Origin: Pocillopora verrucosa
Taxonomy: Eukaryota > Cnidaria > Anthozoa > Scleractinia > Pocilloporidae
Assembly: GCF_036669915.1 (NCBI RefSeq)
Contig: NC_089313.1
Span: 19,995,928-20,059,927, forward strand
Length of the DNA stretch: 64,000 nucleotides
Reading direction: 5' to 3'
Position numbers and translations under genes: made by a program. The notes below the pieces were generated by a model that searched no databases, had not been told where the DNA came from, and saw only the letters and a program-made list of their open reading frames with translations. Position 1 is the first letter of the stretch. Each line of letters starts with the position of its first letter. Of this stretch, positions 462 to 49,607 are shown piece by piece.

Positions 462-3267
462 CTTGTCTCATCAAGGTAAACTGTTTCCTTTTTAGAGCCA
501 TAATCACGTATGTAAGTTCCCCTGTCAAACAGGTCACTCACAAACTGCAAATCAAAGTGTTGCATTTCCCAATTAGCAAAAATTTAACAATTATCATTGC
601 TAGCAATTCTTTATGACAGGGTTTTTGAAACTAAGCTTTATCTTATTTGCAAGGCATATTTAATTTTGACAGATTTTCCCTGGATTCAATCAAACAATCA
701 TATTCCAATATACAATAAATGCTGAGGCAGGGGTTCAAAAGGTGAAATGCATACCATTATGCGCTCTTCAAAGAAAGCAACATAGCTAAGAATAACATTT
801 CTTGCAGCTCCAGAACTTTCCATATAATACTGGGTCACTTTCTCCAGGGGCAGTGATCTTTCTACTATGTCTTCAAAATTCTGTAGAACTGTTCTTTCAG
901 TAGACCCTGAAGAATAATAATTTGTAGAATATTCATCTGTGAGTTTGGAGGAATGTAAATGTTATGACACACACTAGCAGTGTGGTTAGCATAAAGAGTC
1001 ACAAAACTACATGGTATTTGTCAGGTAAATGGAAATTACCAGAAAAGAATATACCTTGTCTCTAAAACAAACTGGTTGTTCAAATGAGTTTCATGCTGTT
1101 ACTGAGAATTAATACAGCTCTTCCGTGTGTTTCATATGTACAGAATGAGCTAATCCCTAATAAATAGCATTGGGAATGCTGATAAAAAAATAATAACTGG
1201 CCTAAGGTGAATGATAAACAAATATGGCACAATAAATTATATCAAATACAAACAAATGGCATACCTGAAAAAGATGCCACTTGAATGTTTTGTCTCATTA
1301 TTTCTGTTTGCTGGCCTTTTCGTTCCTTGATAGTTACTCTTGGAAACCCATGGCAATTTTCAGGACCATAATTAGACAAAACCTCATTTAATTTATCAAG
1401 GCTTCCAATGCAATAGGCAAACAACCCCAATGAACCCAAAAGTTATTCGCAATTTCTCATCTCACAATGCAGAGAACAAAGATTAATGCTGCTTAATTCT
1501 TCCTCCAATAGGAAATTAAGGTCATCTCGAAGGCCTGAACACCTGTATAGAGAGAAAGTAGAGAGATGGTTGGGTTAGATTTGCCACACATGAAACATGT
1601 ATGCATGATACCAATAAATTTTATCAGGTATCTCACCTTCTGATGTTGGCTTTTGACCTTAAACAATCTAGACAGGTTTCATCTGCATCAACTCCATGGC
1701 ATGTACAGGCCTCAGTGAAAATAAGTATTTAATTAAAATTCATTTCTTAGGTAATTTCATGCACTTTAACAACAGACATAAACATTCAATTCTACAAAAT
1801 AAAGTCATCAATGGCTGTTTTTCACTACAGCCATGTACTACCTCGAATTTGACTTGATGCCATTCTGCTTTCAGAAAACTGATCTGATCACAAGTTGATG
1901 AAATAATTAAAAGCAAGGAAAATATCAAGAGAAATAATTACCCTGATTGCATCACAAAATACACAAAATTCCACGCCATATCCTTTCCCACCAAGAAGGA
2001 AATCTTCATTATTTTTTTTTTTGAGAATAAGCAGCAAGGCCTTGTAATCAAGAGTCACTGCAGAAACAGGAAATTTAAGGTAACAATATTACAGAATATA
2101 CTTTGATGTTCATAACACATGAGACTTAACACATAATAAAAAAATTGTGTCTCAGGAAAACTCACTTCTCCAGATGATTTAAATTAATTTAATTAAACAA
2201 TGACTCAGTGTTATTGTGCAGTGAAGTAATAACAGGCTCTGTGTGGAATGTTTTCTTTTCCTTTTTTCAATGAGTAACTCTGAATGTTCAATTAAACAGA
2301 AAATTTGGCTGCGTTGCCTACTTAATTCCAAACTTTGTCATTTTGCGGTTTACTTTTTACTTTCTATCTCTCTAATTAAAAATTACCTGTGAAAGAAATG
2401 TTGTACTTTTTACCATCAACCCATATTCCATGTTTTTTGATGACATCTTTCTGATTATTGAGGTTCTCAAGTAACTGCTTTAAAATTGACCTGATAAAAA
2501 AAGGAGAAAAAAATTAAAAGAGAACACTTGCAAAAGCACCTTCATTAATGCAATCCCACTTCTCTGACTATTCTAGTATTTACAGCAAAAATGATGGCAA
2601 TGATGTAAGAGCCTTTAAAATTATTCAAAGTCTTCTCTTCAAAACCAGTAACATGCACTATTGTCTGCATGCACCAGCATGTGATCCAATACACATTTTA
2701 TAACTGTATTTTTTTATTTTTGTAAATGATTAGAAATGGGTGGTCATTGTAAAATTAGTTATTATAACTTTTGTTCACTGATTATTTGACCTGACTTACT
2801 TAAATCACCACTTACCTTTTCTCCTTACAGTTCCCAATTGCAAGGGGGTAAATAGACAGTCCGCTCACAGAGCTTTTGTTTTTAAAATCAATGGGTGCCA
2901 TGCCTACAGCTAATTGGTCTTTACCTGAAATAAACCAATACAAAGACACCTTTGCTTAATCTGGCCAGGATTACACTTTCATACTCAAGACTAACAACTC
3001 TCAAAAAATTTACTCAAATGAGAACACACCTCCTTGTGGGCGTCCATCAAGTTTAATGTTAAACTCTTTGTCTTCTGAGTTGCATGAATGGAGGTGCTGC
3101 TCCCTAATTGCCCAGACAAAAACAGAATTTAGATGCACATTCCAAGCATCAAAATCTGCATCCTTGACCCTGGCAATTTTGAATGTTTTCTGCACTGTAG
3201 AGAAGACTAGTTTCTTCAGTGCCTTTATCTCATTTTTTGTGAGCAGTACAGGTGTATTCCCAGTTCT
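462..3267 (-). pseudogene. RNase H-like multi-exon gene copy (RAG1/Transib-like?), one in-frame stop
   Basis: Eight exons join in one frame on the minus strand: 3267-3030, 2924-2816, 2490-2387, 2057-1942, 1710-1637, 1542-1265, 906-755 and 544-462, each with AG/GT borders and matching phases. The product has a 'DGRPQGG' motif, then 'TLDYKALL', then 'CVFCDAIR' followed by further cysteines ('ACTCHG', 'CLDC'), then 'SLHCEMRN'. The order D, D, CxxCDAxR, LHCxxxN resembles the catalytic core and zinc-binding region of RAG1 and Transib transposases; this is a resemblance read by eye, not a search result. The 1542-1265 exon has an in-frame TAA at 1445-1443, where CAA (Gln) would fit the context. A further 3' exon may lie at 158-1, but no single frame stays open there. 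The 5' end was not found. It may be a decayed member of a multicopy family, or an allele with one nonsense change. Confidence 0.5.
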
Positions 3268-3544
3268 CTGTAGAAAAAAATTATCCAGAAACAGGTTTAG
3301 ATCAACTATCACTTTATAAATGTTAAAAAAGGTTGACATCAGTTATGTTCAGAAATACATTAAAAAATAACCCACTAAAAGAAGTCTCAATAACTGCTTT
3401 ATAAATCGTGTTCTGATTTTCAAGCCATAAAACTGAATGAACAAATGTAATTCCCCTCTCAGGAGGAATCCTTTGAAAACTGGATACCTTACCTGAGGTG
3501 TAAGATGTAATTTTACTCATAAAAAATCAATATGCTGTACATCT

Positions 3545-3850
3545 CACCCTTGCGAAATGGCTTTTGGAATTCCTAGGAAAAAATTCCTAGGAATTCCTAG
3601 GAATAAAGGTGTGAATTTTCACGGTAAATTTGGACTGGGAATGCCTAGGAATTCCTAGGAATTCCCAACCATAACAACTCTGGTTCTAAAAACCTAGAAA
3701 TTCCTAGAAATTCCCAGAAATTCCAAGTTTATAGCCAACAGGACTCAGAGAACCAATGACTTCCCCTGAAAAGCTGTAAATCTAAAAAATTCCTAGGAAT
3801 TTCTGGGAATTTTTAGGAATGTTTAAGAATTACTGGGAATTTTAAGCAAA
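3545..3850. repeat. Dispersed repeat rich in palindromic AATTCCTAGGAATT motifs (divergent copy)
   Basis: This stretch is packed with GGAATTCCTAGGAATT-like and GGAATTTCTGGGAATT-like motifs. It is a diverged relative of the copies at 16374-17160 and 25495-26190, sharing the 'cccttgcgaa' start and the motif grammar but little intervening sequence. It lies just upstream (in gene sense) of the RAG1/Transib-like copy. Confidence 0.7.
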
Positions 3851-4310
3851 AATTTGAGGCTAATGATATAAAATAAATACTTTAAATTAAAAAAACCCAG
3901 CTAAAATTCAAGTATTTAATGAAATTTATTTAGAAGCTTAATTAAGGCTTACATGTGAAATATTTTTGATTAATTATTAACATCAATGTGTGGTAATATT
4001 AGGATGGAATTTGATTTATTTTTCTTTTCTTGAAAACTTCATACGGATTAATCCTCAATTACAGCTATTCATATAAAATAGTCCTAATCAATCATTAAAT
4101 TTGGGTTGACACAAATTGTGAATAAAATCTGTTGATTCTTTTCCATAAAATACAATATCTTAAATTATATTTGAAAACCAAGCACTCTTGGGAGTGAAGG
4201 GGTTAATTACAGACAAATAAAATTGATTTTTTGATTAAAATCTTGTTGTAACTGTAACAATAAATTAGAATGAAGTTATCCTAAACTGCAAACTTAGCTG
4301 CTGTTTGTAT

Positions 4311-4361
4311 TTTTTTTCCTGGGTTTACAATGAGTCGGCCTTGAATGAGGTTGTCTACAAG
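4311..4361 (+). other. Possible coding fragment split by the X insertion and inversion
   Basis: The frame reading SWVYNESALNEVVYK runs up to the X insertion point. If X is removed and the inversion reversed, the next bases are the complement of 19251 downwards, and the same frame continues for about 12 codons (starting RLDHFVSG) to a TGA. A short open frame across the rebuilt junction is suggestive but could occur by chance. No domain was recognised. Confidence 0.25.
4353..4361. repeat. Target-site duplication half, left flank of X copy 1
   Basis: GTCTACAAG directly precedes the X terminus GGGAGTTACTAC. It has no direct partner at the other end of this X copy, but its exact reverse complement, CTTGTAGAC, precedes X copy 2 at 19252-19260. 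Confidence 0.85.
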
Positions 4362-5290
4362 GGGAGTTACTACATCACGGGCGACGAGCGGTCAGCATTA
4401 GATTCCATCCACCAAAACCACCTTGGTCGAGAGGGACTGAGATGGAATGATGGAAAAAAATTACGAAGCTACGACAACATGCCGACTTATCCCGATGACC
4501 CAAGTGTATTATTTGTTTGGGAAATTGCGTCAAAACTTTTTACTAAAGAAATGGTAAGTATTAATTTATTGTTCGATTGTAGTATTATAAAACATTTTGT
4601 CTTTCCTTTGCATATGTTAGTGAAAAGTTCTTACAATTGTTAACTTCTAAACCATCTTCAATTTAGCCAAGATTGAACTGTTATCACGTTTGTCATAAAA
4701 GTATTCTGAGATCAATGTCATATGACCCATTCATGTATTTGACCTTTCAAATTAGCAAGCCATAGTTGACAGAAACACAAAGGTTGAGGATAAAAAGAAA
4801 TTATTATATACAGTACTTCTTCTGTATCTTTTCGTTTCCTTTTCTCTCCAGCTGTTCAATCTATGCCGTGCTGGCAATTGAACACTTTCCTTCCCAAAAT
4901 TAGGAAAGGCACACCAGTAAAAAACGAATTTTTGCTCCTTAAATATCTCATGCATCTTCCCCCAGTATTTTGTGACTTCTGTCCGAGGAAGGAGGTGTAA
5001 GCATTAAATTAACCCGAATGATTCCACGATTGTGGTATCATCCAAGCCATGCCAGAGGACTTGAACTAGACAAACTAGTGAGAATGCACAATAGCGATAG
5101 CAAAGCTTTGTAATGCTAAAGAGCTATATCAAATATATATAAATATATGTTCCCGAAACCTTTGACAGCTTTAAAGAAAGAAAACTTCCTCGTCAATCCT
5201 GTTTCAAATTCCGCAATAAGTTTAAGCGCCTCATCAACAGAATTTACGTATCCTAAATTATCTGCATGTCTATCATCAATGGTTCGCGAC

Positions 5291-6480
5291 TTAAGAGGCT
5301 GTCTCTCTTATTTCCAGCCGGTCAATTTTGCGTCAAAAATAATTTTTCCTGAAACTCTGTCAACAGAAAGACTTTATCTAGGAAAGAACTAAATTAGATT
5401 TGGTTTGATTCGAAATAATTTTCTGACTGCATTAGGGGCCATAATTATTTTCCAGTCCGTAGGGACCGTCGCAACGTCTCGAAAATTGAAAAATAGGCAT
5501 ATTTTGTAACATTGTAAAATATTTGATTCGCATAGTTAAGCCACAGAATTTATATCAGATTGCTTAAAAACCTTTCTAGTTTGCCAAGAAAGTTAGAATT
5601 TGCCCTCTCAATATATTTGATAAGGCGAATTTTAGCATATTCTGACCACTAGAAATCGCCATCGGCCGATGGCCGTAAATAACCTTGATTTAGACGTTAA
5701 GTTTTGGGATTTGGGACCTGGTTGACGATTCTATCCTACACAGCCGTTAAGTTTAGACCTTTATAGGTAAAATATGCAAAAACCCCTGTACGTTTTCGAT
5801 TTTTCAAAAGTTATGACCGTTTGAATCAGCACATGTACGAGCATTCGCGATTTTTTCGCCTACACCAAAATCGAACCACTGGAGCAGATTTCGTCATAAA
5901 TACAGCTTACCCGCTTTGCAGCCCGGCTTCATGGCTCACTTCAGCATTTTTCTAATAACCAAATTGGTGAAATCCATGATAACTTCAACAAATAGCTAGG
6001 TATTGCCTTCGAAAAGTAGGCGGCGTCCATCGTGATTCGTGGTATCAAAACAAATGTCGGAATTGGCCACATTTCGCGGTGAATCACCCATTTAACATCG
6101 CTGCAGAGCTGAATTTTTTCCAAAATCAGAATATAAACTCTCCATGTCTGGAAGCTGAGGGAGAAATGAAGGTTTTAGGCTTCTGAAGTGAAGAAATAAT
6201 CGCTTAAATTTAGGTCCAGTTCGATGTTATACTGTTCTCACAAAGGTCCGCGCAAAAGAGAAGACCGCTGATAGCTTGTGCCGTATGTTGTGCCGTATGA
6301 TTTTGTTTTGTATCCCAATGTAATATTTGGAGAGAAAAATTTTGGACGAAAAGAATAAATGCTTTTACCTAGAGTTTGATATCATATAATTAATAAATCA
6401 ATTTCAAATATCCTGAGCTTGCTTCTCTCGGTTCCGCGTCGATTGTATCCACAGAACAACAACCTGTCAATAGCCGGAGA
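5291..6480 (+). repeat. Left arm of 1.19-kb inverted repeat
   Basis: The sequence from TTAAGAGGCTGTCTCTCTTA to GCCGGAGA reappears as reverse complement at 6969-8157 with very few differences (for example GTATGTTG against GTACGTTG). A 60-codon open frame in this arm is mirrored exactly in the other and is a by-product of the duplication. A transcript through both arms would form a hairpin of about 1.2 kb. Confidence 0.95.
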
Positions 6481-6968
6481 AGAGAGACAAGATCTGGTAG
6501 ACAAAGTTAACAAAGAGATCAAAGTCTCACATCCAATCTGCTACGATACGTAGGACCTGTGTGAACGGTACCACAGTAACACACTTCAGAAATTCAATGT
6601 GGCTTTGTTGAGAGCCATCTGTAGTCATATTTGAGATCCCTGTAAAATTGAGTGACAAACTGTCGGACGTGATTAGTGATTAGACAAACTGTCGGACGTG
6701 ATTAGTGATTTTCAATGTGTTTCTCAGTAGACTTATGTAAAGAATGTCTTATACGGTGGCTGAAAGTGTAGAATATGCTCTACAGATACAAACTACCTTT
6801 ACTTCCGATATCAAGTTCTGACGGCGTTGTTATAGTGTATTATATTATAATATCTAGTAGTCAGTGAAATGTTTTGATGAAATCGATTGAAAATTTACCA
6901 AAAGCAACACTTATAACATCTGTTCACACGAATCATGTGTCAAGTTTTTAACACGTTGGTAGCCGATT
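6481..6968. other. 488-bp loop between the inverted arms, with a 29-bp tandem duplication
   Basis: This is the unique spacer of foldback element Y. A 29-bp unit beginning GACAAACTGTCGGACGTGAT is repeated at 6654-6682 and 6683-6711. No open reading frame or RNA gene was recognised. Confidence 0.8.
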
Positions 6969-8157
6969 TCTCCGGCTATTGACAGGTTGTTGTTCTGTGG
7001 ATACAATCGACGCGGAACCGAGAGAAGCAAGCTCAGGATATTTGAAATTGATTTGTTAATTATATGATATCAAACTCTAGGTAAAAGTATTATTCTTTTC
7101 GTCCAAAATTTTTCTCTCCAAATATTACATTGGGATACAAAACAAAATCATACGGCACAACGTACGGCACAAGCTATCAGCGGTCTTCTCTTTTGTGCGG
7201 ACCTTTGTGAGAACAGTATAACATCGAACTGGACCTAAATTTAAGCGATTATTTCTTCACTTCAGAAGCCTAAAACCTTCATTTCTCCCTCAGCTTCCAG
7301 ACATGGAGAGTTTATATTCTGATTTTGGAAAAAATTCAGCTCTGCAGCGATGTTAAATGGGTGATTCACCGCGAAATGTGGCCAATTCCGACATTTGTTT
7401 TGATACCACGAATCACGATGGATGCCGCCTACTTTTCGAAGGCAATACCTAGCTATTTGTTGAAGTTATCATGGATTTCACCAATTTGGTTATTAGAAAA
7501 ATGCTGAAGTGAGCCATGAAGCCGGGCTGCAAAGCGGGTAAGCTGTATTTATGACGAAATCTGCTCCAGTGGTTCGATTTTGGTGTAGGCGAAAAAATCG
7601 CGAATGCTCGTACATGTGCTGATTCAAACGGTCATAACTTTTGAAAAATCGAAAACGTACAGGGGTTTTTGCATATTTTACCTATAAAGGTCTAAACTTA
7701 ACGGCTGTGTAGGATAGAATCGTCAACCAGGTCCCAAATCCCAAAACTTAACGTCTAAATCAAGGTTATTTACGGCCATCGGCCGATGGCGATTTCTAGT
7801 GGTCAGAATATGCTAAAATTCGCCTTATCAAATATATTGAGAGGGCAAATTCTAACTTTCTTGGCAAACTAGAAAGGTTTTTAAGCAATCTGATATAAAT
7901 TCTGTGGCTTAACTATGCGAATCAAATATTTTACAATGTTACAAAATATGCCTATTTTTCAATTTTCGAGACGTTGCGACGGTCCCTACGGACTGGAAAA
8001 TAATTATGGCCCCTAATGCAGTCAGAAAATTATTTCGAATCAAACCAAATCTAATTTAGTTCTTTCCTAGGTAAAGTCTTTCTGTTGACAGAGTTTCAGG
8101 AAAAATTATTTTTGACGCAAAATTGACCGGCTGGAAATAAGAGAGACAGCCTCTTAA
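6969..8157 (-). repeat. Right arm of 1.19-kb inverted repeat
   Basis: Reverse complement of 5291-6480, about 99% identical by eye. The high identity suggests either recent origin or gene conversion between the arms. Confidence 0.95.
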
Positions 8158-9379
8158 AATTCTCGCTATGCTGTTTCTGTTTGTTCCTCAAGAATCATGG
8201 GATTTACAGCTTCGGATGTTCGGCTACATCACTTGCGGATTTCCGAGAATCTTCGGTTATGTTTTGCAAGTCATTAAATATTCCATCTCAGTCCCTCTCG
8301 ACCGAGGTGGTTTTGGTGGATGGAATCTAATGCTGACCGCGACGAGCGGGGATAGAAAAAACGACCCAAATACGAGTGGTCAGCGGTAAAACAACTTTAA
8401 TACCTCATATATAGACAGATCATTTGTAGTATCAAGAAATAATCGTGTTGTAAAGCCGAAGTGTAAGCAGTTTACTTCGCTAAATAAAATGTTAAGCAAT
8501 TCAAAAGTGTTGATTGTACATATATCTTTTACTGCTTTAATAAACAATGAAGGCATCGGTGGCATCCGAAAGGTACCAAGAATTAAATGTACGTTTTGTA
8601 GTTGCAGAAAACAATCGTGTTGTAAAGCCGAAATGTTACCAAGTTACACTTCGCTACTTAAAAAGTTAAGCAATTTTCCTCAAGCTTTAACTGGAACAAT
8701 ACTTTTAATGCTCTATTAACCAATGGAAGCATCGGGAAAGGCATTGGTGACACCGGGAAAGGCATCAAGAAGAATGATATTAACGTTATGTAACTTGTTG
8801 TGTGACGAAAAAAAGGTATCTTGACTTGTTCAAAGCATTAATCACAGTTGACTTCCTTTTCACTTGAATTTTGTATCCACAGCCTAAGATGAGAAATTTA
8901 AAATTTCTATCAGCTGAAGTTCTTTTACTGCATATTATATCTATTCAATCGCCCCCAATTCACGTGGAAAAAAGGCAAGTAGGAAAACACTGAGCTTCGA
9001 GAAACAGCCATGTTAAGGCTAATGTATTTACCATTCCTTAAATATTTATAATCAAGACCACTCGTTTAGGAGACCTTTTCTCAAAAGATCCTCACGTGCA
9101 AATAATTCTGTTTTCCGTTCGAAATGTTTTTCTTCCTATTCAATTGAAGAACTGACTTAGCGTTTAAGCCGAGAAAAAAATCACAAAGTTTGAATTCTGG
9201 GATGTTGTCCACTGTTGGCTCCATCAAGTTACGATTCTGCACCATTGACGCTCGTGAAAATCTATCTACTACCAAGGACTGTATTTCTTATCTTACAAAT
9301 TAAGATCTGTACATGACATTAAGTTCATCATCTGGTTCATTGTTATAGTCAGCTCTACTTGTACTGACAAGAAGCCACC

Positions 9380-11162
9380 CTAAGGGCAGGTGAAATGTTG
9401 CGTAAGCGTCTCCGCGAAAGGCACATCCAGACAACTTGCATGGAAAAACTGGCCACAGCTATCGCACCCAAGCCAATCCTCTCCATCGTCGTCTTTGCAA
9501 ATCTTACAGACCGCGGTATTTCTCCTATAATTGAACAAAAGATATGGGACGTCAAAGAGAGTGTTGCGACGTTTAAGAAACAATGGTATTTGACACCATC
9601 AAAACTTACCAATCAAGGTCATCATAACACGAGCCAAATATGACAGACGTTATTCTTTCCCTTTCCATGTCCACATCATAACTTCCATTGATATCCAACC
9701 CCTCACACAAACACCGAGCAAACTTAAAACAAACAAAGAGAAATTTAATACATTCGAAACCAGGAAGCAGTCCTATTAAAGTGAGCTTTAGCAAGTGATT
9801 ATGCTACTCACAAGACATACAATCACACCACAGTTATAGTTATCGGTCTGTGTGTAATGTAGTGGTTCAACACATAGCCATGACTTGCAATTCCATTCCG
9901 TTTTGAGATCGGCAACGGCACTGCAGAGTCAAACAAAATACAGCGATTACATAAGTATGTTTTTTCTGCATGCATCAAAATAAAAAGGAAAACATTGAGT
10001 TGAAAATATTTCACCTGATGTCATCGATCAGTTCTATCAGTTTGCTCTTAGGAACTGAGGTGCTCAAAATGGTGTGTACACGCCCATTCATGGGATCGAA
10101 ATAATATCTGGTTTTCTGCTTTCGACCCAGAACTTTTAAAACATAAGCAAGAGAGCGCTTAAAGATTTATTTATGATGCAAAGTCCAGTTAAAAGGTTCT
10201 TGATTAAAGTGCGTTATTCAAAAAGATTATTATCGTAAGGTCCTAACCAGAAGTGTCCAGTGATTTCCAGACTTGTTCATGGGTATAAATATTTTAGAAA
10301 TCTGGGTAAAGTTCTCTCCTGACCAAAGCAAGCGAGTGCTGGAATGTCGCTTTACCATTTCAGCCATAGTTGTGTGTGCCACAAAAATATCTCGGTGGAT
10401 TAAGGTCAGGCGCCACAGAACTGCTTCGATAACCTTTGAAAAAATGAAAAATTCGTATTAAAAGAGATTTCTTAAAAGATAAAACGGTAAAAACGAACGA
10501 TAAAATCCGACGTTTCGGAGTAGTTATGACTCCATTATCAAGGTAAAAGTTTAAAACATGCAAATAACAGTATTTAAGCGATGTGGCGCGAAAAATTAAC
10601 ATAATAGGTGCGAAGATTATACAAATACTTTCGCACGAATAGAGTCCGATTGCACGTTCAGGTTTGGCTTTAAAGTTCTTATATGAAGCATTTCGTACAA
10701 TAAGCAGTCAAATTTGTTCCTGCACTTCTTAAGAACTTCGAAGCATTTCAGTAGGTCCTGAGGGATCGTCCCGTGTACGTTCTTGCAATGTTTGGCAATG
10801 GCTGAGGATTGTTGTTTATGTCCTTTTACACGATTGTGTAAATTACACAATCGTGTAAAAGGACATAATTTTTCGCGCCACATCGCTTAAATACTGTTAT
10901 TTGCATGTTTTAAACTTTTACCTTGATAATGGAGCCATGACTACTCCGAAACGTCGGATTTTATCGTTCGTTTTTACCGTTTTATCTTTTAAAAAATGAA
11001 AAAGGAGAGCATTTCATGGAGGAAAGTTGTATGGAGAAGACACTCTATGTTAATAAAAAAAAGCACCTTGTCCACGAGCCAACCAGGCTGAAATCCCGCT
11101 ATTGCACTGTTAAAGTTAATATTTCTTTTCGCAACCTCTGGATGGATCAACCGGAAATCATG
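9380..11162 (-). CDS. Transposon-encoded Ulp1-like cysteine protease with PHD finger (X copy 1)
   Basis: Minus-strand exons 11162-11067, 10433-10248, 10157-10015, 9920-9812, 9722-9610 and 9524-9380 join in frame to at least 263 residues. The first exon ends 'GFQPGWLVDK', a typical Ulp1 entry segment. Next come 'NHWTLL' (catalytic His), 'YYFDPMNG' (catalytic Asp) and 'QTDNYNCGV', with the oxyanion Gln six residues before the catalytic Cys, as in C48 SUMO proteases. The last exon is a PHD finger (CKIC, GCDSC, FHASC, FTCP) whose final cysteine is missing because the stop follows FTCP. The intron between exons 1 and 2 holds a Penelope-type fragment. The true start is not resolved; upstream codons stay open for about 10 residues. 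This is likely the C-terminal part of a longer ancestral transposon protein. Confidence 0.75.
10452..10990 (-). mobile_element. Penelope-type fragment in X copy 1
   Basis: A 539-bp insertion flanked by a 13-bp duplication, AAAAAATGAAAAA, at 10439-10451 and 10991-11003. It consists of two inverted arms of about 124 bp around an 88-codon frame (10883-10617) ending SLNV-type 'PNLNVQSDSIRAK'. That end, together with 'KKCRNKFDCLLYEM', resembles the C-terminal GIY-YIG region of Penelope-like retroelements. The same insertion sits at the same place in X copy 2, so it predates the split of the two copies. Confidence 0.65.
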
Positions 11163-11488
11163 ATACTTTTTTTTCGTCACGCACGTCACGCAGCTAGCTA
11201 CAAACCATATATATAATTATTCTTGGTGCCTTTCCGAATGCCACTGACTCCCTCTCCGAAGCCTCCATTGTTTATTAAAGCAGTAAAAGATACGAGTTCA
11301 ATCAACACTTTTGAAAAATTGCTTAAACTGTGAAGTAAACTGTTAACATTTCGGCTTTACAACACGATTGTCTCTGGAACAACAAATTATATGTCTCTAT
11401 ATGAAGTATAAAAGCAGTTTTACCGCTGACCGCTCATATTTGGGTCGTTTTTTCTATCCCCTCTCGTTGCCCGTGATGTGGTAACTCC

Positions 11489-11497
11489 TAGTCGCAG
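11489..11497. repeat. Target-site duplication half, right flank of X copy 1
   Basis: TAGTCGCAG follows the X terminus (GTAACTCC). Its exact reverse complement, CTGCGACTA, follows X copy 2 at 22443-22451. It is not a direct repeat of the left flank at 4353-4361. Confidence 0.85.
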
Positions 11498-11544
11498 TCG
11501 CGCAATTAAAAACCATTACGGGAAACCATTAAATTTTGAGGATA

Positions 11545-14500
11545 ATGAAGGCGTTTCTACCATCGATCCTTTTTTTAGTTATTCAGTGCCTCACAGGTAA
11601 GATTTTCAGGGTTTGTCGTTGATGTTGAAAATGTTTTAATGTTCTCTTGCTCACATTGCTTTAGGGTCAAAAGGATGACTGGTTGCGTTTAAAAAAACCA
11701 AAGGAATAATGCAACTTCGGTCTCCTCGATAACTAAACCCACAAATTCCACCAGCGAACGATTTAACTGAACAGCAAATCTCCATGTTAGCATGTAAGAT
11801 GAGACGTTTATAAAACAGATCAGTTAGCTAAATCAGTATGTAGCTTGTCAATCAAATTGTTTATTCTGAATGCAGTAATTCCTGAAAGATTTTCCTAGAT
11901 GCCATGCAAAGAGGAAAAAAACCTATCTCTTGGTATTTGGCAGGTTGATTCATCTCTGAATTTCTGTGTCACGCTTGTCATGCAACTGAAATAATAAGAT
12001 AGAAAAGATACATAAACTGGAACTCAAATCTGGCTAGAATGTGGTAGAGCATAGTTAACGTAATCATCGAGACAGCTGATAAAATCATAAATAAACAAGG
12101 TAAGAGTGCTATGTTAGATTTTTAGACTATTTTACAGGGTTAGCATTAGATTCCATCCAACAAAACCACCTTGGTCGAGAGGGACTGAGATGGAATGATG
12201 GACACCTCATGACTTGCTATACTAAATAAAAATTACGAAGCTACGACAACATGCCGACTTATCCCGATGACCTAAGTGTATTATTTGTGTGGGAAATTGC
12301 GTCAAAACTTTTTACTCGAGAAATAGTAAGTATTAATTTATTGTTTGATTGTCGTACTATAAAAAATTTTACAAAATTTTATGCAGATATTTCACGTATT
12401 TAAAAGGTGTCAGTAGGGAACATCCACCAAAACTTTGACCAAAACCATCAACAATATATATTTTTTTATTTTATCTATAGCCACTGTTAGATCTTCAGGG
12501 AGACAAAAGATTTATACCACTAATTAGCAGTTAGTGCTCTTTTTTTGGAAGATCAAATTAACTTTGTGCTGTTTAAGATTCAGTTTTGGTTTCTTGCTTA
12601 TTCCAGCCTCTTCACATTCAAAAGCATTCCTTGCCATTTTTGTTTTCTTTTGTGCAATATAACTTGAAAAATAAACACAGAGAAAGGAAACCACAAAGGA
12701 TTAAACTTGAAGCTAAAGCAAAGTTTAAGTTGAGCCATAGCTGATCCAAATACTAAGCACTTTATATTGTAACCCATTTAACAGTAAAGTTTATCTATAG
12801 GTCTGCCAGCTTGTCACAAGTCGTACCCCTCTCCTCCAAAAGTCTCTATAAACAAATTTTTCTTCATGGTCCCTAATTGATGATAAGTATATTACAGCTC
12901 CTCAATTTCCCTCTCTCAAGACAAGGTGACTCTAAATTTAACAAAGAAGTGGACTTGATAAAACTCAAACTATAAGTCAACTGGCTGCTACTTGCAACCT
13001 TAATTTCTTGATGTCAGTAGACAATAAACAATATGTTATAAATAAGAACCCTTATGCTTAATTTTGCAGTGATCACCTTCCTCCTTTTCATTTGCAGACC
13101 AGACTGGAACCTTCATAGGTGTGTTTGCTTTTTTTGAGTGGGGATGGAAGAAAAGGAGTCATGCTACATATCTGATGTTCAGCTACATCACTCACTGATT
13201 TCCGAGGATCTTCGGTTATGTTTTGCAAGTCATTAAATATTCCATCTCAGTCCCTCTCGACCGAGGTGGTTTTGGTGGATAGAATCTAAGTGATTTATGC
13301 CAGTTAACAGTGGCGACATGACTTATGACTTTTGCCTTATTATGTCTTTTCCAGTGCCCATTCATGCAACAGTTCATCCAACCATGATCTCTGCTCCAAA
13401 TAAGTCAGTGAAAGCGGTCATTGGTGACACTGTGTCATTAAGGTGGCACTACAATTCAGGATATCTAAAGAATGATCTTTTAGAGGTTATGTTTGGTATT
13501 GAGAAGAGTCCTGACCTCCTGGAACCAAAGTTGGTAGCTGTCAACTCGAGTGGTTTTGCCTCAACACGGTCATCATATAGGTCCTCCGTGGGTTGGGCAG
13601 GAAATTTGACATCCTCTGTCGCAGTGTTTGAACTCTACAATGTAACAACTAACGATAGCAATACGTATGGTATAAAGGTGGAATACGGAGCTGGGCATAC
13701 CCCATTGATCGACTCAGTCCAGCTTCAAGTTGAGTCCGGACGTAAGTAGTAGATCGGAACGGTCCCTGAAATCTCCCAAAAGAGGAGCCACACTGAATAA
13801 TAAGGAGAAATCATTAACAATAATTCCAAGAGCACTACGAACTACGAGAATAACTCCTTTCAGAGTAATTGCAGATTATTGGGATCTCTTTTTCATAAAT
13901 ACTGTCGTTCTACACAAGTTCGGTTACCTTCGAGAATGGTCAAACACTTCCATTTAGTTACTGGACGACTGATCTAGACAACTGTGTTCCATTCATGATC
14001 AACCGAGAATTGAGGCCACCGCCGCACAATAGGGGCGGGAAAATATTTTTCATAAACTCTTCTTACCACCTTTAAACTTGTTTACTCAGACAATTGTATT
14101 TGCTAAGTTTTAACACTGCCAGGTATTAAAGTTGATTTTGCGTAAACTATTCAACACAGGTGCACCAGAAACAGCTACTCCTCGAGAGAAAAACGTCCCC
14201 ACAACGCCAAGAGCTACAGGGTCTCCAGTCACATCGAAAGGTAATGTTCGTATCCTGTTGGTTTGCCCATCTTAAGTTACAGTACTTTTGCACCAGCAAG
14301 CCTGTAGGTAAATTACACAAGAATTGGAGATGAAACTTTTTTCTTTAATAGCTTTTTATCCTCTTAATAATATATATTACCCACTCTACAAACCAACGTA
14401 CCCCTTTTCAGGACCTTTTCAAGTTTTAACACTTTTCAAGTTTTAACACTGCCAGGTATTAAAGTTGATTTTGCGTGAACTATTTGACACAGGTGCACCA

Positions 14501-15187
14501 GAAACAGCTACTCCTCGAGAGAAAAACGTCCCCACAACACCAAGAGCTACAGGGTCTCCAGTCACATCGAAAGGTAATGTTCGTATCCTGTTGGTTTGCC
14601 CATCTTAAGTTACAGTACTTTTGCACCAGCAAGCCTGTAGGTAAATTACACAAGAATTGGAGATGAAACTTTTTTCTTTAATAGCTTTTTATCCTCATAA
14701 TAATATATATTACCCACTCTACAAACCAACGTACCCCTTTTCAGGACCGGTAGCCTGAGTTTAGAGTGCAAGTGATTTCAAATATTTCAAGTTCAAACAT
14801 TTCATTTCCACCCAACATGTAAGAATACTTTCATTCCAATTAATTAACCTCCAAACGGACCTTCATACTCATTTAGCCATCTACCCTTTTACCTTATCTA
14901 CTCATAAAACTACTACGGTCTAATCATCAGAGTTGCTGTTGTTCTTTCTTTTTATTTCTGTTCTAGAGCCCGGCTTTTCACTGCCAAGAAAATTGATTTG
15001 GATAGCGATGATTGGAATGATTTTGACTGTCATAGGAACACCCTTTGTCTGTTGGCTGTACTTTTCCTCCCATAGGAAAATTTCTGACGCAAATAGACAT
15101 ACCTTCACTGAAGGCGCGATAAATAAATGTTTTATGGAAAATCCATTCGAAACAAATAATAACGGATGCCTTAAAGGCGTTGACTAA
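11545..15187 (+). CDS. Type I membrane protein with a cysteine-free Ig-like domain
   Basis: Exons 11545-11596, 13355-13741, 14160-14240, 14493-14573 and 14967-15187 are all phase 1 at their inner borders and give 273 residues. Residues 1-17 form a signal peptide (MKAFLPSILFLVIQCLT). Exon 2 encodes one V-like Ig domain (about 30-145): 'GDTVSLRWHY' as strand B-C and 'DSNTYGIKV' as the usual D-x-x-x-Y strand F. It contains no cysteine at all, so the canonical disulfide is absent. There are three N-glycosylation sequons (NSS, NLT, NVT). Exons 3 and 4 are a tandem exon duplication encoding a Thr/Pro-rich stalk. Exon 5 gives a transmembrane helix (about 210-233) and a 40-residue tail without an evident ITIM/ITAM. 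Ligand and role are unknown; cell-surface recognition is an inference. The gene lies wholly inside the inverted segment. A poly(A) signal AATAAA is at 15832. Confidence 0.8.
12138..13290. mobile_element. Y-related non-autonomous element in intron 1 of the Ig-like gene
   Basis: The left end (GGTTAGCATTAGATTCCATC) and the inverted right end at about 13232-13290 match the termini of element Y. The first 180 bp also match Y's exon-like segment, including a GTAAGT donor-like site. No clean target duplication was seen, and the extreme right end differs, so this copy is older or damaged. Confidence 0.65.
14105..14750. repeat. 333-bp tandem duplication creating exons 3 and 4 of the Ig-like gene
   Basis: Units start at 14105 and 14438. 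Each contains intron sequence, one 81-bp exon (phase 1 to phase 1, so frame-neutral) and downstream intron. The two exons differ by about one base, pointing to a recent duplication that lengthens the membrane-proximal stalk by 27 residues. Confidence 0.9.
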
Positions 15188-16373
15188 AGCTTTCTTAGGT
15201 GAGGTAGAAATCGTTGACACATTTTTATAGAACTAAGTTATATATATCCTTGTTTAACCGGTTTGATCACATGCGTTTTTGTGTGGGATTTCTCACACCT
15301 TGTCAAGGCCCACAAAATTCATATATTTATTTGTCCACGAGAGAGAAGTGCTTGACGTTTAGTGAGCCGTGAAGACTGGATTCTATCACATGCCGTGAAG
15401 ACTGGATTCTATCACATGACCAGAAGGCAGAGATCCCATGACGAGCTTTGCTCAAGAAAATAATTTGCAGCAGGTATCGTAAACTGATGCCGAGGGTTGA
15501 GGAAGAAGTTGTTGGGTTGATGTCATCACAAACATTACACCGCAATGTAATTACATAGACTTGGCGCCCACGAATCCGCGAGAGATACGCGATTGCGTGC
15601 TCAGTCATGAAACTTTAGAAAATTGCTATGCATAATGCTCATTAAAAAACTATGTTCTTTCTGATCCCGCCTGTTTCCTTATTATTGTGACGTTTCTAAT
15701 CACGTAGTCTTTTTTCACAGAAGAGGCGATACCTGCTAGGCGCCGTATTCATAAAAGTCTCTGTTTCAATTATTTATGTATTCTTTCGCTTGGTTTGTAT
15801 AGGTTATCACATGATTTCGAGTGCAATTTGGAATAAATAAGCACAAGTAAATTTTTTCAAAGACAAAATTGCATTACATATGATAAACAAAATAATACAT
15901 GGTTGTTTGTAGATATAAAATTTCTCTTCTCATGTTTAACTCGACATCTCACTCGTTCACTGCGCTCACTCGTGAGCTATCAATATAGATTAATTCCATA
16001 TCTATTTATTTATTTCATTAAATTTAAGTATTTTGTTATTTATTTTATTTTCATTGTAGGCAGTTGTTGAAATTTTTGAAGTGTTTGTAGATGGTTGTGG
16101 GTGGTTTTAGGTGGTTTTAGGTGGTTTTAGGTCGTTCCTTGTTTTAGTACTTACCTCCGTGGGGTGAGTTACTAACCCTAGAGGTTTTTGCATTCATTAA
16201 ATTTAAGTATTTTGTTATTTATTTTATTTTCGTTGCTTTGTTTCTATAGCGATGAGCTGTTGGTGATGTGATTCTTTTTCTTACCAGCAATGTAAACCCC
16301 ATGTAAGGTTGTATTTGACAAAATTCATAAGAGTTTTATTTCAAATTTCATTAGGATGATTTTGTGTATCGTG
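15188..16373. other. 3' flank and intergenic DNA with short repeats
   Basis: No gene seen. Small repeats: GGTTTTAGGT several times at about 16100-16132, and a 40-bp AT-rich block at 16014-16055 repeated at 16193-16234. The stretch around 15878-15930 (from TGATAAACAA to a TGTTTAACTC-type end) recurs near 26258-26330. Confidence 0.6.
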
Positions 16374-17160
16374 GTGCCCTTGCGAACTGAATTCCCAGTT
16401 TTCTGGGGATTCCTAGAATTCTCAAAAATTCCCAATTATGCAAACGACCCTTGCAAACTGAATTCCCAGTTTTCTGGGAATTCCTAGGAATTCTAAAAAA
16501 TTCCCAACTATGCAAATTAATTCTGATTTAAAAAGCTTGGAATTACTGGGAATTTCTGGGAAAGGAAGACTCCAGTTTTGTGAGGACTTGGAATCCCTAG
16601 GAATTCCTAGGAATTCTCAGCTTTACAAACTACCTATAATTTAAGAAGTGTGGAACTCTTGGGAATTTCTGGGAATTGAATTTGGGGCAATTTTAATACC
16701 CTGAGGTCCACATCAATTCTAAGAAATTCTCAATACCTTGAATGTGAAGGTTTTAAGAAAAGGAGTAATTTCAGAGGCTTAAAACTTTGGCTGAATAAAA
16801 GGTATGTTATACAAAACTTACCAAGAGATATACATACATGTATATGTTTATAACTTAAAGATCATGAAATTTATTATTCAAACTAAGTTTAAGTAAATCT
16901 TTACATTAATGTGGATTTTCTCATGAACCAGCTGTCAGTTATGTTAAATGGAAATTTCCAATTAATCCAATGTACTCATATCACAGATTTGCTTTCTAAC
17001 CTCAAAGGACTCTTGGATTCCATGATCAAAAAATATTTTTATTGTGATGCATATAAATGTCTCATGTTCACTGATGTGCCAAAATCATCAAACATTCATT
17101 AGCTGTTCCTTGGTACACAACTTCCACAATAATTAACAATAATTACATTGTTATCTTACT
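16374..17160. repeat. Dispersed repeat, AATTCCTAGGAATT family, copy A
   Basis: About 780 bp that aligns along its length with 25495-26190. The first 66 bp are duplicated in tandem. The 5' 300 bp are rich in palindromic GAATTCC/CCTAGG motifs; the 3' part is AT-rich and ends near the shared phrase CCAAAATCATCAAACATTCA. No coding capacity was recognised. Confidence 0.85.
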
Positions 17161-17829
17161 TCCCTAACCTATATTACTGGTTGCCTTTGTTAGAAAACCT
17201 TGGAACAGTCAAGCTCAGTTGCCTCAAACACTGTCAGAGAATTTTTGTTGACAATACTTTTAGGAGAAATTTCATGCCTTAGACAAACAAATTAAACACT
17301 TAATTAATCTTTCTTTTTTCATGACTGTTGTTGCTGTTTTTTTTTTTTTCAGTTTTTTGCTCTATTTTCATGACTAATTGCTGTAATTTGTTTTGCTGTT
17401 TTTATTCTTACAAAACATTTTTGTAAGAGTTCCAATACTTGTGGATCATCCACACACTTTGCAAACATTTGGCATGCAGACAAGACAGAGGTATTCAATG
17501 TTCCCTTTGAGAAAAAACACCTTTTAAATGACGTCTTCAATTTACTTTATTTGAAACTCTGATCTGAAAATATTTGTCAACAAGACTTGTTAGTAGTGAG
17601 AAGTACCAACCAAGTTTCCTTTCATAACTTAATTTCTTAAATGTCCCAATCACTGGATCTCCCAAAAAACATTACATCTTTTTATTTTTGGTGCAAAATA
17701 CAAGTTCTTCTTTATATACAAATGAAAAGCGCAAGTCACACTTCAATAACAACAGCTCTAAAGTTTACTTGATGTTCTTCTCTGTCTGTCAGCTATCAAC
17801 AAAATTGTTTTATACTTCGGACAGTGCAT
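17161..17829. other. Unannotated AT-rich intergenic DNA
   Basis: No feature supported. A 63-codon minus-strand frame at 17540-17349 has no recognisable domain. Confidence 0.5.
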
Positions 17830-18310
17830 AACTATTTGTGGACCAGAGTTCCAACGCACCTCTGTAATCGCATATAGTTACTTCTGCCTCTTGTACAAAT
17901 GTTTCTCCTTTGTAAGACGCACTCTACTCTGTTGTCACTACTGCCTTAAGTTCAGTGGAAACGACAGACTGAGGAATCGATATGGTGGTGTTGGAACGTG
18001 TTGCTGAACGCTTGCTACGGTCAAGCTTTGTATATTTAGGTACTGGTACACCGAGATCATCTATGTATCTCTTATACTTCCTAATGTGGTATCCTTCTTT
18101 TATAAATATGAGGGTAAAAGACGATTTGTAGTCGCATTCAAAACTGTGATTGGCTTGTGCTATTTCTCACCTTTGCCATTAACACAACTCAAGTGAGTTT
18201 CGAGTCTTTGTTTCCTCGACAACTTTCAGCCACAAATCGTGCATTTGTAATACGATCGATTCTTGTCTATTATTTCTACATAGAGTGAGCTCACATCTTT
18301 ATTTATATCA
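17830..18310 (-). pseudogene. Possible C2H2 zinc-finger gene remnant
   Basis: On the minus strand one frame reads 'YYKCTIC', a stop, 'KLSRKQRLETHLS', then 'CDYKSSFTL' and 'EGYHIRKYKRYIDD', with further stops downstream. The spacing resembles C2H2 finger fragments followed by a basic tail. At least three stops break it. The assignment rests on motif resemblance only. Confidence 0.25.
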
Positions 18311-19251
18311 CCAAGGTATCCATCGTCCAGAAGCAGAGAACCGGTCGGAGGAGTCAGAATAAAGTTGTGCGCTTGTTTTAAGACTGCAATCGGCAAGCCA
18401 GCGGATTCACTTTGCTAGCCAATGACAAGTCCTAAAAGATCCACGTGATCATGCCCATGATCAGAAACAAGGAAGACTCCGTTTGGCGCTCATCTTTGAA
18501 TGTACTTTTCATCGGTTGATCGCTTTTCTCAACCGTTTTGCTTAATATAACATTTCTAAAGATAGCTTTTATTGTGGTTCAATGGGAAAATGAGAATAGC
18601 GTGAGTGTTGTAAAAGAAAAGAAAGTCGTTGGCGCCGTGGAGTTAAAGAAGGGACAACAGTTGACATATTGACTGGTACAAACAACGGTCGAGTGGCCAT
18701 CTATAAAGCTACGATTTTGAAAGTTTGTGGTCAGTAAAAATTGCGATATTCGTTACGTGATCAAAATCTTATAAAAGAATAGATGTAGCGGGTTGTGTTA
18801 AGCTTACATAACGCTCGGCGCAACTGAAACTAGAATAATTCTGAGAATCGAATCGGTCACTTGCATGCCGCAGTTTCTTAAGCTTATGCTTTACCATGAA
18901 ATAAACCTATCAGTAAGGTTTCAAGATTCCTCTTGTCACGTTTGGGAACATTCAAGATTCATAATAGGAACTGTTATTAAACAAACCTTATTACATAAAG
19001 AAGCCCTCTTTGGTAAAAACAAAATAATATATTCAGCCCTCTTTTAGTAAAATCCATAAGAGAGATGTACTAACTCCAATATAAAAGTCACTCAATATAA
19101 CAGAGATTTCTCAATTTGAGAATCCAATGAATGCCCTTTTCCTCATAGCCATCTTAAAGGCCTGGTCTGAGCTTTAAATATACATATTTTAATATATTAT
19201 TTTTTTTCAAATTCAGATGTCATGGAATCCAGATACAAAATGGTCAAGCCT

Positions 19252-19260
19252 CTTGTAGAC
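19252..19260. repeat. Target-site duplication half, left flank of X copy 2
   Basis: CTTGTAGAC, exact reverse complement of the 4353-4361 flank of X copy 1. Confidence 0.85.
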
Positions 19261-19588
19261 GGGAGTTACTACATCACGGGCGACGAGCGGGGATAGAAAA
19301 AACGACCCAAATATGAGCGGTCAGCGGTGAAACAGCTTTTATACTTCATATAGAGACATATAATTTGTTGTTCCAGAGACAATCGTGTTGTAAAGCCGAA
19401 ATGTTAACAGTTTACTTCACAGTTTAAGCAATTTTTCAAAAGTGTTGATTGAACTCGTATCTTTTACTGCTTTAATAAACAATGGAGGCTTCGGAGAGGG
19501 AGTCAGTGGCATTCGGAAAGGCACCAAGAATAATTATATATATGGTTTGTAGCTAGCTGCGTGACGTGCGTGACGAAAAAAAAAATAT

Positions 19589-21370
19589 CATGATTTCCGG
19601 TTGATCCATCCAGAGGTTGCGAAAAGAAATATTAACTTTAACAGTGCAATAGCGGGATTTCAGCCTGGTTGGCTCGTGGACAAGGTGCTTTTTTTTATTA
19701 ACATAGAGTGTCTTCTCCATACAACTTTCCTCCATGAAATGCTCTCCTTTTTCATTTTTTAAAAGATAAAACGGTAAAAACGAACGATAAAATCCGACGT
19801 TTCGGAGTAGTCATGGCTCCATTATCAAGGTAAAAGTTTAAAACATGCAAATAACAGTATTTAAGCGATGTGGCGCGAAAAATTATGTCCTTTTACACGA
19901 TTGTGTAATTTACACAATCGTGTAAAAGGACATAAACAACAATCCTCAGCCATTGCCAAACATTGCAAGAACGTACACGGGACGATCCCTCAGGACCTAC
20001 TGAAATGCTTCGAAGTTCTTAAGAAGTGCAGGAACAAATTTGACTGCTTATTGTACGAAATGCTTCATATAAGAACTTTAAAGCCAAACCTGAACGTGCA
20101 ATCGGACTCTATTCGTGCGAAAGTATTTGTATAATCTTCGCACCTATTATGTTAATTTTCGCGCCACATCGCTTAAATACTGTTATTTGCATGTTTTAAA
20201 CTTTTACCTTGATAATGGAGTCATAACTACTCCGAAACGTCGGATTTTATCGTTCGTTTTTACCGTTTTATCTTTTAAGAAATCTCTTTTAATACGAATT
20301 TTTCATTTTTTCAAAGGTTATCGAAGCAGTTCTGTGGCGCCTGACCTTAATCCACCGAGATATTTTTGTGGCACACACAACTATGGCTGAAATGGTAAAG
20401 CGACATTCCAGCACTCGCTTGCTTTGGTCAGGAGAGAACTTTACCCAGATTTCTAAAATATTTATACCCATGAACAAGTCTGGAAATCACTGGACACTTC
20501 TGGTTAGGACCTTACGATAATAATCTTTTTGAATAACGCACTTTAATCAAGAACCTTTTAACTGGACTTTGCATCATAAATAAATCTTTAAGCGCTCTCT
20601 TGCTTATGTTTTAAAAGTTCTGGGTCGAAAGCAGAAAACCAGATATTATTTCGATCCCATGAATGGGCGTGTACACACCATTTTGAGCACCTCAGTTCCT
20701 AAGAGCAAACTGATAGAACTGATCGATGACATCAGGTGAAATATTTTCAACTCAATGTTTTCCTTTTTATTTTGATGCATGCAGAAAAAACATACTTATG
20801 TAATCGCTGTATTTTGTTTGACTCTGCAGTGCCGTTGCCGATCTCAAAACGGGATGGAATTGCAAGTCATGGCTATGTGTTGAACCACTACATTACACAC
20901 AGACCGATAACTATAACTGTGGTGTGATTGTATGTCTTGTGAGTAGCATAATCACTTGCTAAAGCTCACTTTAATAGGACTGCTTCCTGGTTTCGAATGT
21001 ATTAAATTTCTCTTTGTTTGTTTTAAGTTTGCTCGGTGTTTGTGTGAGGGGTTGAATATCAATGGAAGTTATGATGTGGACATGGAAAGGGAAAGAATAA
21101 CGTCTGTCATATTTGGCTCGTGTTATGATGACCTTGATTGGTAAGTTTTGATGGTGTCAAATACCATTGTTTCTTAAACGTCGCAACACTCTCTTTGACG
21201 TCCCATATCTTTTGTTCAATTATAGGAGAAATACTGCGGTCTGTAAGATTTGCAAAGACGACGATGGAGAGGATTGGCTTGGGTGCGATAGCTGTGGCCA
21301 GTTTTTCCATGCAAGTTGTCTGGATGTGCCTTTCGCGGAGACGCTTACGCAACATTTCACCTGCCCTTAG
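19589..21370 (+). CDS. Transposon-encoded Ulp1-like cysteine protease with PHD finger (X copy 2)
   Basis: Exons 19589-19684, 20317-20502, 20593-20735, 20830-20938, 21028-21140 and 21226-21370 total 792 bases, and every junction phase agrees. The catalytic set is His in 'NHWTLL' (exon 2), Asp in 'YYFDPMNG' (exon 3), and Gln and Cys in 'QTDNYNCGV' (exon 4). Exon 6 is the PHD finger, ending FTCP-stop. C48 proteases cut SUMO or ubiquitin-like modifiers, and PHD fingers read histone tails; for the transposon, roles in chromatin targeting or de-SUMOylation are inference. Copy differences are few (one turns an Asn into an Asp in an alternative frame). A poly-A length difference upstream of exon 1 changes the open frame there, so the start is uncertain. 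Confidence 0.75.
19761..20298 (+). mobile_element. Penelope-type fragment in X copy 2
   Basis: 538 bp flanked by the 13-bp duplication TTTTTCATTTTTT (19748-19760 and 20299-20311). Inverted arms of about 124 bp (19762-19885 and 20155-20278) surround an 88-codon frame (19868-20134) resembling a GIY-YIG C-terminus. At 19883-19935 two 26-base complementary arms flank one base. The arms contain ACTCCGAAACGTCGGAT next to TTGATAATGGAGT, which recalls the hammerhead ribozymes reported in Penelope-like elements. If aligned that way the core is degenerate. Confidence 0.65.
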
Positions 21371-22442
21371 GGTGGCTTCTTGTCAGTACAAGTAGAGTTT
21401 AAATTTTAAAGCTGACTATAACAATGAACCAGATGATGAACTTAATGTCATGTACAGATCTTAATTTGTAAGATAAGAAATACAGTCCTTGGTAGTAGAT
21501 AGATTTTCACGAGCGTCAATGGTGCAGAATCGTAACTTGATGGAGCCAACAGTGGACAACATCCCAGAATTCAAACTTTGTGATTTTTTTCTCGGCTTAA
21601 ACGCTAAGTCAGTTCTTCAATTGAATAGGAAGAAAAACATTTCGAACGGAAAACAGAATTATTTGCACGTGTGGATCTTTTGAGAAAAGGTCTCCTAAAC
21701 GAGTGGTCTTGATTATAAATATTTAAGGAATGGTAAATACATTAGCCTTAACATGGCTGTTTCTCGAAGCTCAGTGTTTTCCTACTTGCCTTTTTTCCAC
21801 GTGAATTGGGGGCGATTGAATAGATATAATATGCAGTAAAAGAACTTCAGCTGATAGAAATTTTAAATTTCTCATCTTAGGCTGTGGATACAAAATTCAA
21901 GTGAAAAGGAAGTCAACTGTGATTAATGCTTTGAACAAGTCAAGATACCTTTTTTTCGTCACACAACAAGTTACATAACGTTAATATCATTCTTCTTGAT
22001 GCCTTTCCCGGTGTCACCAATGCCTTTCCCGATGCTTCCATTGGTTAATAGAGCATTAAAAGTATTGTTCCAGTTAAAGCTTGAGGAAAATTGCTTAACT
22101 TTTTAAGTAGCGAAGTGTAACTTGGTAACATTTCGGCTTTACAACACGATTGTTTTCTGCAACTACAAAACGTACATTTAATTCTTGGTACCTTTCGGAT
22201 GCCACCGATGCCTTCATTGTTTATTAAAGCAGTAAAAGATATATGTACAATCAACACTTTTGAATTGCTTAACATTTTATTTAGCGAAGTAAACTGTTTA
22301 CACTTCGGCTTTACAACACGATTGTTTCCTGATACTACAAATGATCTGTCTATATATGAGGTATTAAAGTTGTTCTACCGCTGACCTTGTATTTGGGTCG
22401 TTTTTTCTATCCCCGCTCGTCGCCCGTGATGTAGTAACTCCC

Positions 22443-22451
22443 CTGCGACTA
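22443..22451. repeat. Target-site duplication half, right flank of X copy 2
   Basis: CTGCGACTA, exact reverse complement of the 11489-11497 flank of X copy 1. Confidence 0.85.
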
Positions 22452-26400: not shown

Positions 26401-26500
26401 NNNNNNNNNNNNNNNNNNNNNNNNNNNNNNNNNNNNNNNNNNNNNNNNNNNNNNNNNNNNNNNNNNNNNNNNNNNNNNNNNNNNNNNNNNNNNNNNNNNN
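26401..26500. other. Assembly gap (100 N)
   Basis: A run of exactly 100 N. The sequence before it (26255-26340) contains an inverted pair around GAAGAGAAATTCCATATCTA, which may explain the assembly failure. Confidence 1.
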
Positions 26501-48800: not shown

Positions 48801-49607
48801 ATCCAGGACAAATGGAGAGAGTCCACGTTCATAGTTTCTCAACCCTCCTCTTGTGAAGAGCATTTTTTGCTTCCCCCCCTCTTTTATTCATATCAAATTT
48901 ATGTTTGGATGAATCTAAGAGCCCCGCCCTTGCTCCTCTTATTCATGGATGGTGTCTGAGCCCTACTGGCTTTTTGGTTTTCAGGTGTTGATACTAATAA
49001 CAGGAGACAATCAACTTCAAGTGATGAATGGAGTTTAACGCCCCCAGCAAATCAGGGGGGACCTCTCAGCTTAGACAGCACCTTACTTCTCCCTGGGCAA
49101 AGACTGATGTCCACCGATGGGTTTAGAAGTCTGGACAGTCAGCAGTGTGTTACTAGGGACAGAACTCATTGTTTTGCTGCCGACTGTCAGAACCCTACAG
49201 CACGTGCATCAAAAAGGTGCCTACACTGTCGGCATTTTTACTGTGTAACTTGTGCATCCTTGTCACTCATGTGCCCAGAGAGTCCAAGTGGACATCGATT
49301 TGTGTCAAGCATGCTTACAACCAGGGGTAGAGAACAACCAAGGACTAGTAGCAGGGTAAGGAAAAGGAAGCCAAAGAAAGAGGAAGGGCCCCCCTGGGAA
49401 TGCAAGCAGTGTACCATGATAAACGGACCACAAGTGCTGGTATGCCTGGGGTGTGACACCTTGCGAGAGGTAGATGCTCAAGAAGGGCGCAATGTGTGTC
49501 CCATGTGTACCTTGGTTAATGAGCCTGGTAAGACAAAGTGTGAACTGTGTGACACAGAGCTGGTCAGTCAAGCACAAGCTGACGAGGCAGACACTGAGGA
49601 GTCCTAA
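42869..49607 (+). CDS. TRIM-type RING/B-box/coiled-coil protein with two C-terminal RanBP2 (NZF) zinc fingers
   Basis: Exons 42869-42977, 44122-44399, 45247-45548, 46215-46468, 47041-47295, 47722-47916, 48607-48669 and 48985-49607 agree in phase and encode 692 residues. RING: C9, C12, C30, H32, C35, C38, C54, C57. A B-box follows at about 105-140 ('CPEH', 'YCHTDNCLICIYC', 'GHKC'), then a coiled coil through about 310, an acidic Ser-rich linker, a cysteine cluster (about 548-582), a basic KRKPKK stretch and two zinc fingers: 'WECKQCTMINGPQVLVCLGC' (623-642) and a second at 656-674 (CPMC/CELC). Zinc fingers of this type often bind ubiquitin, so a ubiquitin ligase that reads ubiquitin chains is the natural inference. 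The RING-B-box-coil arrangement is TRIM; the NZF tail is unusual. Confidence 0.85.
43790..43993. repeat. TTAACCCTTTAACTCCC-type MITE, copy 5
   Basis: In intron 1 of the TRIM-type gene. The left end is degraded (CTCTAACTTCCAGCAGTGAT); the right end TCTTGGATGTTAAAGGGTTAA is kept apart from one base. Confidence 0.75.
45578..45786. repeat. TTAACCCTTTAACTCCC-type MITE, copy 6
   Basis: In intron 3 of the TRIM-type gene. Both ends and the core AACACCAAATTCTCATCC are recognisable. Confidence 0.8.

Follow-up and report, generated by a model that had tools for sequence, protein, structure and literature searches.

The window analyzed is a 64,000-nucleotide stretch of the coral Pocillopora verrucosa (C2:19995928-20059927 of a 353-Mb genome in 52 contigs), in which two copies of one DNA transposon, X1 and X2, enclose a 7,772-bp segment carrying an immunoglobulin-like (Ig-like) gene. 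The genome gave 74 matches to the GFP family, in line with a cnidarian host. This arrangement probably arose from two separate X insertions whose cores were homogenized by recombination, with a crossover inverting the enclosed segment. Transposon-mediated inversion by ectopic recombination is a textbook mechanism of chromosome rearrangement. In the proposed sequence of events, two oppositely oriented X elements would have integrated at sites separated by 7.8 kb, with a 9-bp target duplication at each site. One site would have been within a copy of a dispersed repeat (R), and the second immediately upstream of the Ig-like gene. Crossing over of the X copies would then have flipped the segment and swapped the target duplications, and gene conversion alongside it would have made the X cores almost identical. 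We infer that the crossover was the cause, that the inversion is real in the animal's DNA, and that it occurred a single time. Coordinates of all features are collected in Table 1.

The 9-bp flanks of the two copies are the most direct evidence. As put forward in the original prediction, X1 and X2 are inverted relative to each other with their flanks exchanged: all four 9-mers abut X ends, and the flanks on the same side of the two copies are exact reverse complements. A chance match, which had also been called very unlikely, was reckoned by hand at about 4^-18 for exact 9-mers at both of the positions needed. An extra copy of GTCTACAAG is present at 57139, away from any X end. X1 and X2 lie in opposite orientation with 98.96% identity across 3165 columns, and a terminal base present in X2 is missing from the right end of X1.

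The flanks of 28 other X loci (L003-L030), drawn from a larger family, were compared with these. Sixteen are two-ended copies, and perfect matching 9-bp flanks were found in 10 of the 16. Four more (L019, L021, L023, and L027) have near or shifted flanks by reading, while L006 (211-3636) and L012 (301-2089) have unmatched flanks, which may reflect further rearrangements there. Besides the apparent duplicates L005/L030 and L026/L027, flank matches between different fetched X copies were observed for X1/X2 only. L026 and L027 have the same 9-bp flank, lie about 40 kb apart on C3, and are probably a segmental duplication.

The R copies provide the evidence at the first of the two joints. Turning the segment back without X1 makes R, which is about 3.7 kb long, continuous at the joint carrying CTTGTAGAC (restored joint 1). 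An unselected set of R copies was obtained with the B half alone (window 17200-19260) as the query, giving 39 other matches listed from the best 40 of 384 candidates scored. Restored joint 1 was spanned without X by 38 of these 39 copies at 91-96% identity; in the remaining copy, L120, the sequence surrounding the joint is missing. It was likewise spanned in 16 of 16 copies (88.8-97.3% identity) of a second set, which is biased in that its loci were chosen by a peptide already spanning this joint. In 19 R copies that were read out, CTTGTAGAC was intact or had one base changed. It had been set out beforehand that sites empty of X should read through the GTCTACAAG/CTTGTAGAC site, and the paralogous R copies of the unselected set bear this out, the present joints being found in none of the 39 matches listed and none of the 16 peptide-chosen loci (0 of 55). 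Because R copies run across restored joint 1 free of X, the ancestor of X1 is deduced to have inserted in an R copy whose halves now hold inverted positions. An open frame over restored joint 1, DVMESRYKMVKPLVDNLIQGRLI, was considered as a split gene exon and was ruled out, as genome matches place this frame in R. The hand-joined joint-1 peptide had no relative in viral or genomic contig collections, and the matches in PDB were weak only (best E, 0.071).

The wider order around R was deduced from a repeated gene-like sequence, G, in which R is embedded. Besides the window's own copy, 10 other G matches were used. Counterparts of 15437-16376 (the "in" part) and of 2607-3548 (the "out" part) occur together in 6 of the 10. 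The order is un-inverted in all six, as the parts found on the plus strand of the window align to opposite strands, and in five of the six no more than about 32 bp separate the parts, L080 being weaker. In the window, by comparison, both parts are on the plus strand and about 12 kb apart. The "in" part was not found within 1.5 kb on each side in the other four relatives (L038, L039, L041, and L042). The window copy of G was possibly already broken, since five relatives carry about 0.7-1 kb, between their matches to 15797 and 16159, that is missing from it. As a DDE_1 transposase domain lies upstream in the relative L077, G may be mobile too.

How the flip arose was judged from the pattern of divergence between X1 and X2. 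In the core, 6 of 2346 columns differ, and the nearest other copy is about 1.6% different; at the ends, 9 of 250 columns differ, so that the two are no closer there than to other family members. The difference between core and end counts gave a Fisher p of 1.8e-6, or 1.8e-8 with the edges set at the shared part. Ten of the 15 substitutions lie no more than 130 columns from either edge of the shared part, a clustering matched by 0 of 20,000 uniform simulations. Variants exclusive to X1 and X2 among the fetched copies number 15 in the core, 1 at the edge of a nested insert, and 0 in the 250 end columns. The left end of X2 is identical to the left ends of L004, L006, and L017. The mean divergence of the other X copies from the consensus is 1.0% on the left, 1.1% in the middle, and 1.8% on the right, with no general left-side excess. 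A 14-bp deletion seen in X1 alone lies about 1 kb from the nested transposon Y and >2 kb from the X1 right flank, and single substitutions also occur within the cores. The copies had been described as about 99% identical and 3.2 kb long. The identity stands for the shared part, whereas X1 entire measures 7.1 kb and the identity is not uniform. The length of X1 compared with the 3182 bp of X2 is due to Y, which with its foldback element sits near the X1 left end.

The foremost rival explanation, itself unlikely, is an assembly flip, in which the DNA would be un-inverted and the X cores threaded wrongly by the assembler. Such a flip yields identical exchanged flanks, and the differences, most of which fall in the roughly 130 bp next to the core edges, appear as if short flank-anchored reads alone had separated the copies; short-read-limited polishing could also give differences limited to the edges. 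A 100-N assembly gap is present 4 kb to the right of X2 (26401-26500). However, positions 1-26400 are without any N and the shared core is just 3.15 kb, and the X1-only deletion and the core substitutions indicate that the cores are not one collapsed sequence. A real inversion is favored because the sequence is unbroken and the cores differ internally.

The insertion of a hybrid element was considered quite unlikely. Here, one X on both sister chromatids would supply an end from each, and the hybrid would insert 7.8 kb away, so that a single event would create both copies, invert the segment, and swap the duplications. According to the available part of the report on the Drosophila transposon Galileo (PMC2775673), the same flanks are predicted without a second ancestral copy. 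The nested insert of about 0.53 kb common to X1 and X2, which is missing at that site in the five fetched copies checked (L003-L007), and the 15 exclusive core variants are consistent with such an origin. Nevertheless, even likeness along the length would be expected rather than the contrast observed between ends and core, and a later conversion of the core only would be needed as an added step. Ectopic recombination with gene conversion fits better, since the cores are near-identical and the ends are not. It is also possible that X1 and X2 are sisters by origin that were converted later.

A flip-flop, in which the 7.8-kb segment inverts repeatedly, both orientations segregate, and the Ig-like gene alternates between upstream neighborhoods, is improbable; the homogenized cores and diverged edges would then be the trace of repeated exchange. 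That there was no inversion, and that two independent insertions have flanks alike by chance or target preference, is exceedingly improbable, as the two exact 9-mers, the split R, and the order of G are set against it, it is already contradicted at joint 1, and no supporting point was found among the flanks of the other X copies.

Several points weigh against the preferred reading of two insertions followed by a crossover. All comparisons were with other places within one genome and one assembly, and the original caution regarding a segregating inversion or an assembly flip therefore still holds. The zero exclusive variants in the 250 end columns have a chance of 0.22 alone. Chimeric copies are expected from such an exchange but were not demonstrated: at 8 of 11 end sites, the X1 state was unseen in the other fetched copies, which leaves the ends with no traceable parent, and one end pattern searched genome-wide had itself as the single match. 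Common origin and conversion account equally well for the nested insert that the five other copies checked lack. Restored joint 2 (CTGCGACTA) was spanned by 0 of 39 loci compared and has no independent support, the exchanged CTGCGACTA being the only evidence there. On the Ig-gene side of this joint, the stretch running from 11489 to about 11708 had no match but itself among those listed; on the other side (C), a dispersed repeat starts 39 bp from X2.

Table 1. Features of the inverted segment and its surroundings (window positions)
Feature	Position	Strand	Basis
G "out" part, repeated gene-like sequence	1446..3548	-	
R, smaller half	3546..4361	-	
9-mer GTCTACAAG on the left of X1; half of target duplication t1	4353..4361	+	sequence
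X1, copy of the DNA transposon carrying nested Y; 8339-11488 is common to X2	4362..11488	-	alignment to X2
Y, nested transposon near X1 left end; target duplication CGACGAG(CG) by eye	4389..8339 (about)	.	
Foldback element within Y; arms 5291-6481 and 6968-8157, 99.4% identical	5291..8157	.	
9-mer TAGTCGCAG on the right of X1; half of target duplication t2	11489..11497	+	sequence
Inverted segment, 7772 bp; orientation opposite to that inferred as ancestral	11489..19260	-	R and G comparisons
Ig-like gene; by eye, it encodes a signal peptide and a membrane segment	11545..15187	+	sequence
G "in" part; in relatives colinear with the minus strand of 1446-3548	15437..16376	+	
R, larger half, split by X1 and the inversion	16377..19260	+	
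9-mer CTTGTAGAC on the left of X2; 4353-4361 in reverse complement	19252..19260	+	sequence
X2, 3182-bp DNA transposon copy; about 240-bp inverted ends; Ulp1-like peptidase and PHD finger remnants	19261..22442	+	
Nested insert of about 0.53 kb common to X1 and X2	19766..20298	.	
9-mer CTGCGACTA on the right of X2; 11489-11497 in reverse complement	22443..22451	+	sequence

In the present order, X1 lies 57 bp from the first codon of the Ig-like gene, and the G parts are separated from one another. The Ig assignment, made from sequence, is a weak one: the Pfam matches to V-set (E, 0.023) and DUF5992 (E, 0.015) were both under the cut-off, and there was no clear PDB match. A 311-bp duplication (14105-14415 and 14438-14748; 98.4% identical) lies over an apparent exon of this gene. 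A relative of Y was found at about 12138-13289. The 1.19-kb arms of the foldback element differ at seven columns, which are not confined to the edges. Elsewhere in the window are duplicated segments at 48168-50031 and 62160-63988 (87-88% identical) with a Ran-binding zinc finger in the first copy, a B-box domain near 44085-44402, and a tRNA-like sequence at 52763-52836 (Rfam tRNA, 45.6 bits) for which ARAGORN gave an oddly four-base anticodon.

With regard to the classification of X, the Pfam scan matched PF00628, a PHD finger (E, 1.6e-09), and PF02902, a Ulp1-like piece (E, 2.4e-04), the query for the latter being two pieces joined by hand. No transposase was recognized in X, the scan having covered two X pieces only, and an autonomous partner was not sought. 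As tabulated in the available part of PMC6446971 (Table 1), Rehavkus is an outgroup to the Mutator-like elements with a 9-bp duplication, terminal inverted repeats (TIRs) of 26-400 bp, and a PHD finger. X likewise has a 9-bp duplication, TIRs within this range, and a PHD finger, and the Mutator-like/Rehavkus features tested were all found (a duplication of 8-11 bp, long TIRs, and, for Rehavkus, the PHD finger). In contrast to Rehavkus, for which the hosts tabulated in PMC6446971 are arthropod and annelid, X carries a Ulp1-like remnant and no recognized transposase. X would thus be Rehavkus/Mutator-like in looks only.

A narrow search of the cnidarian literature on inversions, transposons, and nonallelic homologous recombination (NAHR) listed a single paper. 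The portions available focus on tandem duplication by NAHR, mention inversions once as an outcome of break-induced replication, and suggest that nearby transposons help; this is no proof of novelty. The flipping of a gene-bearing segment by mobile DNA in a coral genome is well supported here at the level of sequence, with paralogous empty sites as the outgroup, and the combination of exchanged duplications and split repeats is a test applicable genome-wide for counting such events.

Inversions between inverted repeats in the human genome (PMC3961182, as far as available) are alike in that inverted repeats flank an invertible segment and recombine with each other. They differ in that both orientations were genotyped and recurrence was inferred, whereas the present data are from a single assembly. 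A close likeness is to the Galileo inversions 2z3, 2j, and 2q7 of Drosophila buzzatii, which have 7-bp duplications and for which ectopic recombination was inferred in the available part of the report (PMC2775673). Its authors described the outcome of hybrid-element insertion as strikingly similar, but with copies that are identical. The present case differs from Galileo in the transposon, in its 9-bp duplications, in the use of paralogous empty sites in one genome rather than non-inverted chromosomes, and in that chimerism was not demonstrated. In both systems, inverted copies of one transposon lie at both breakpoints with their target duplications exchanged, and the flank pattern of X matches that described for 2z3 (PMC2775673).

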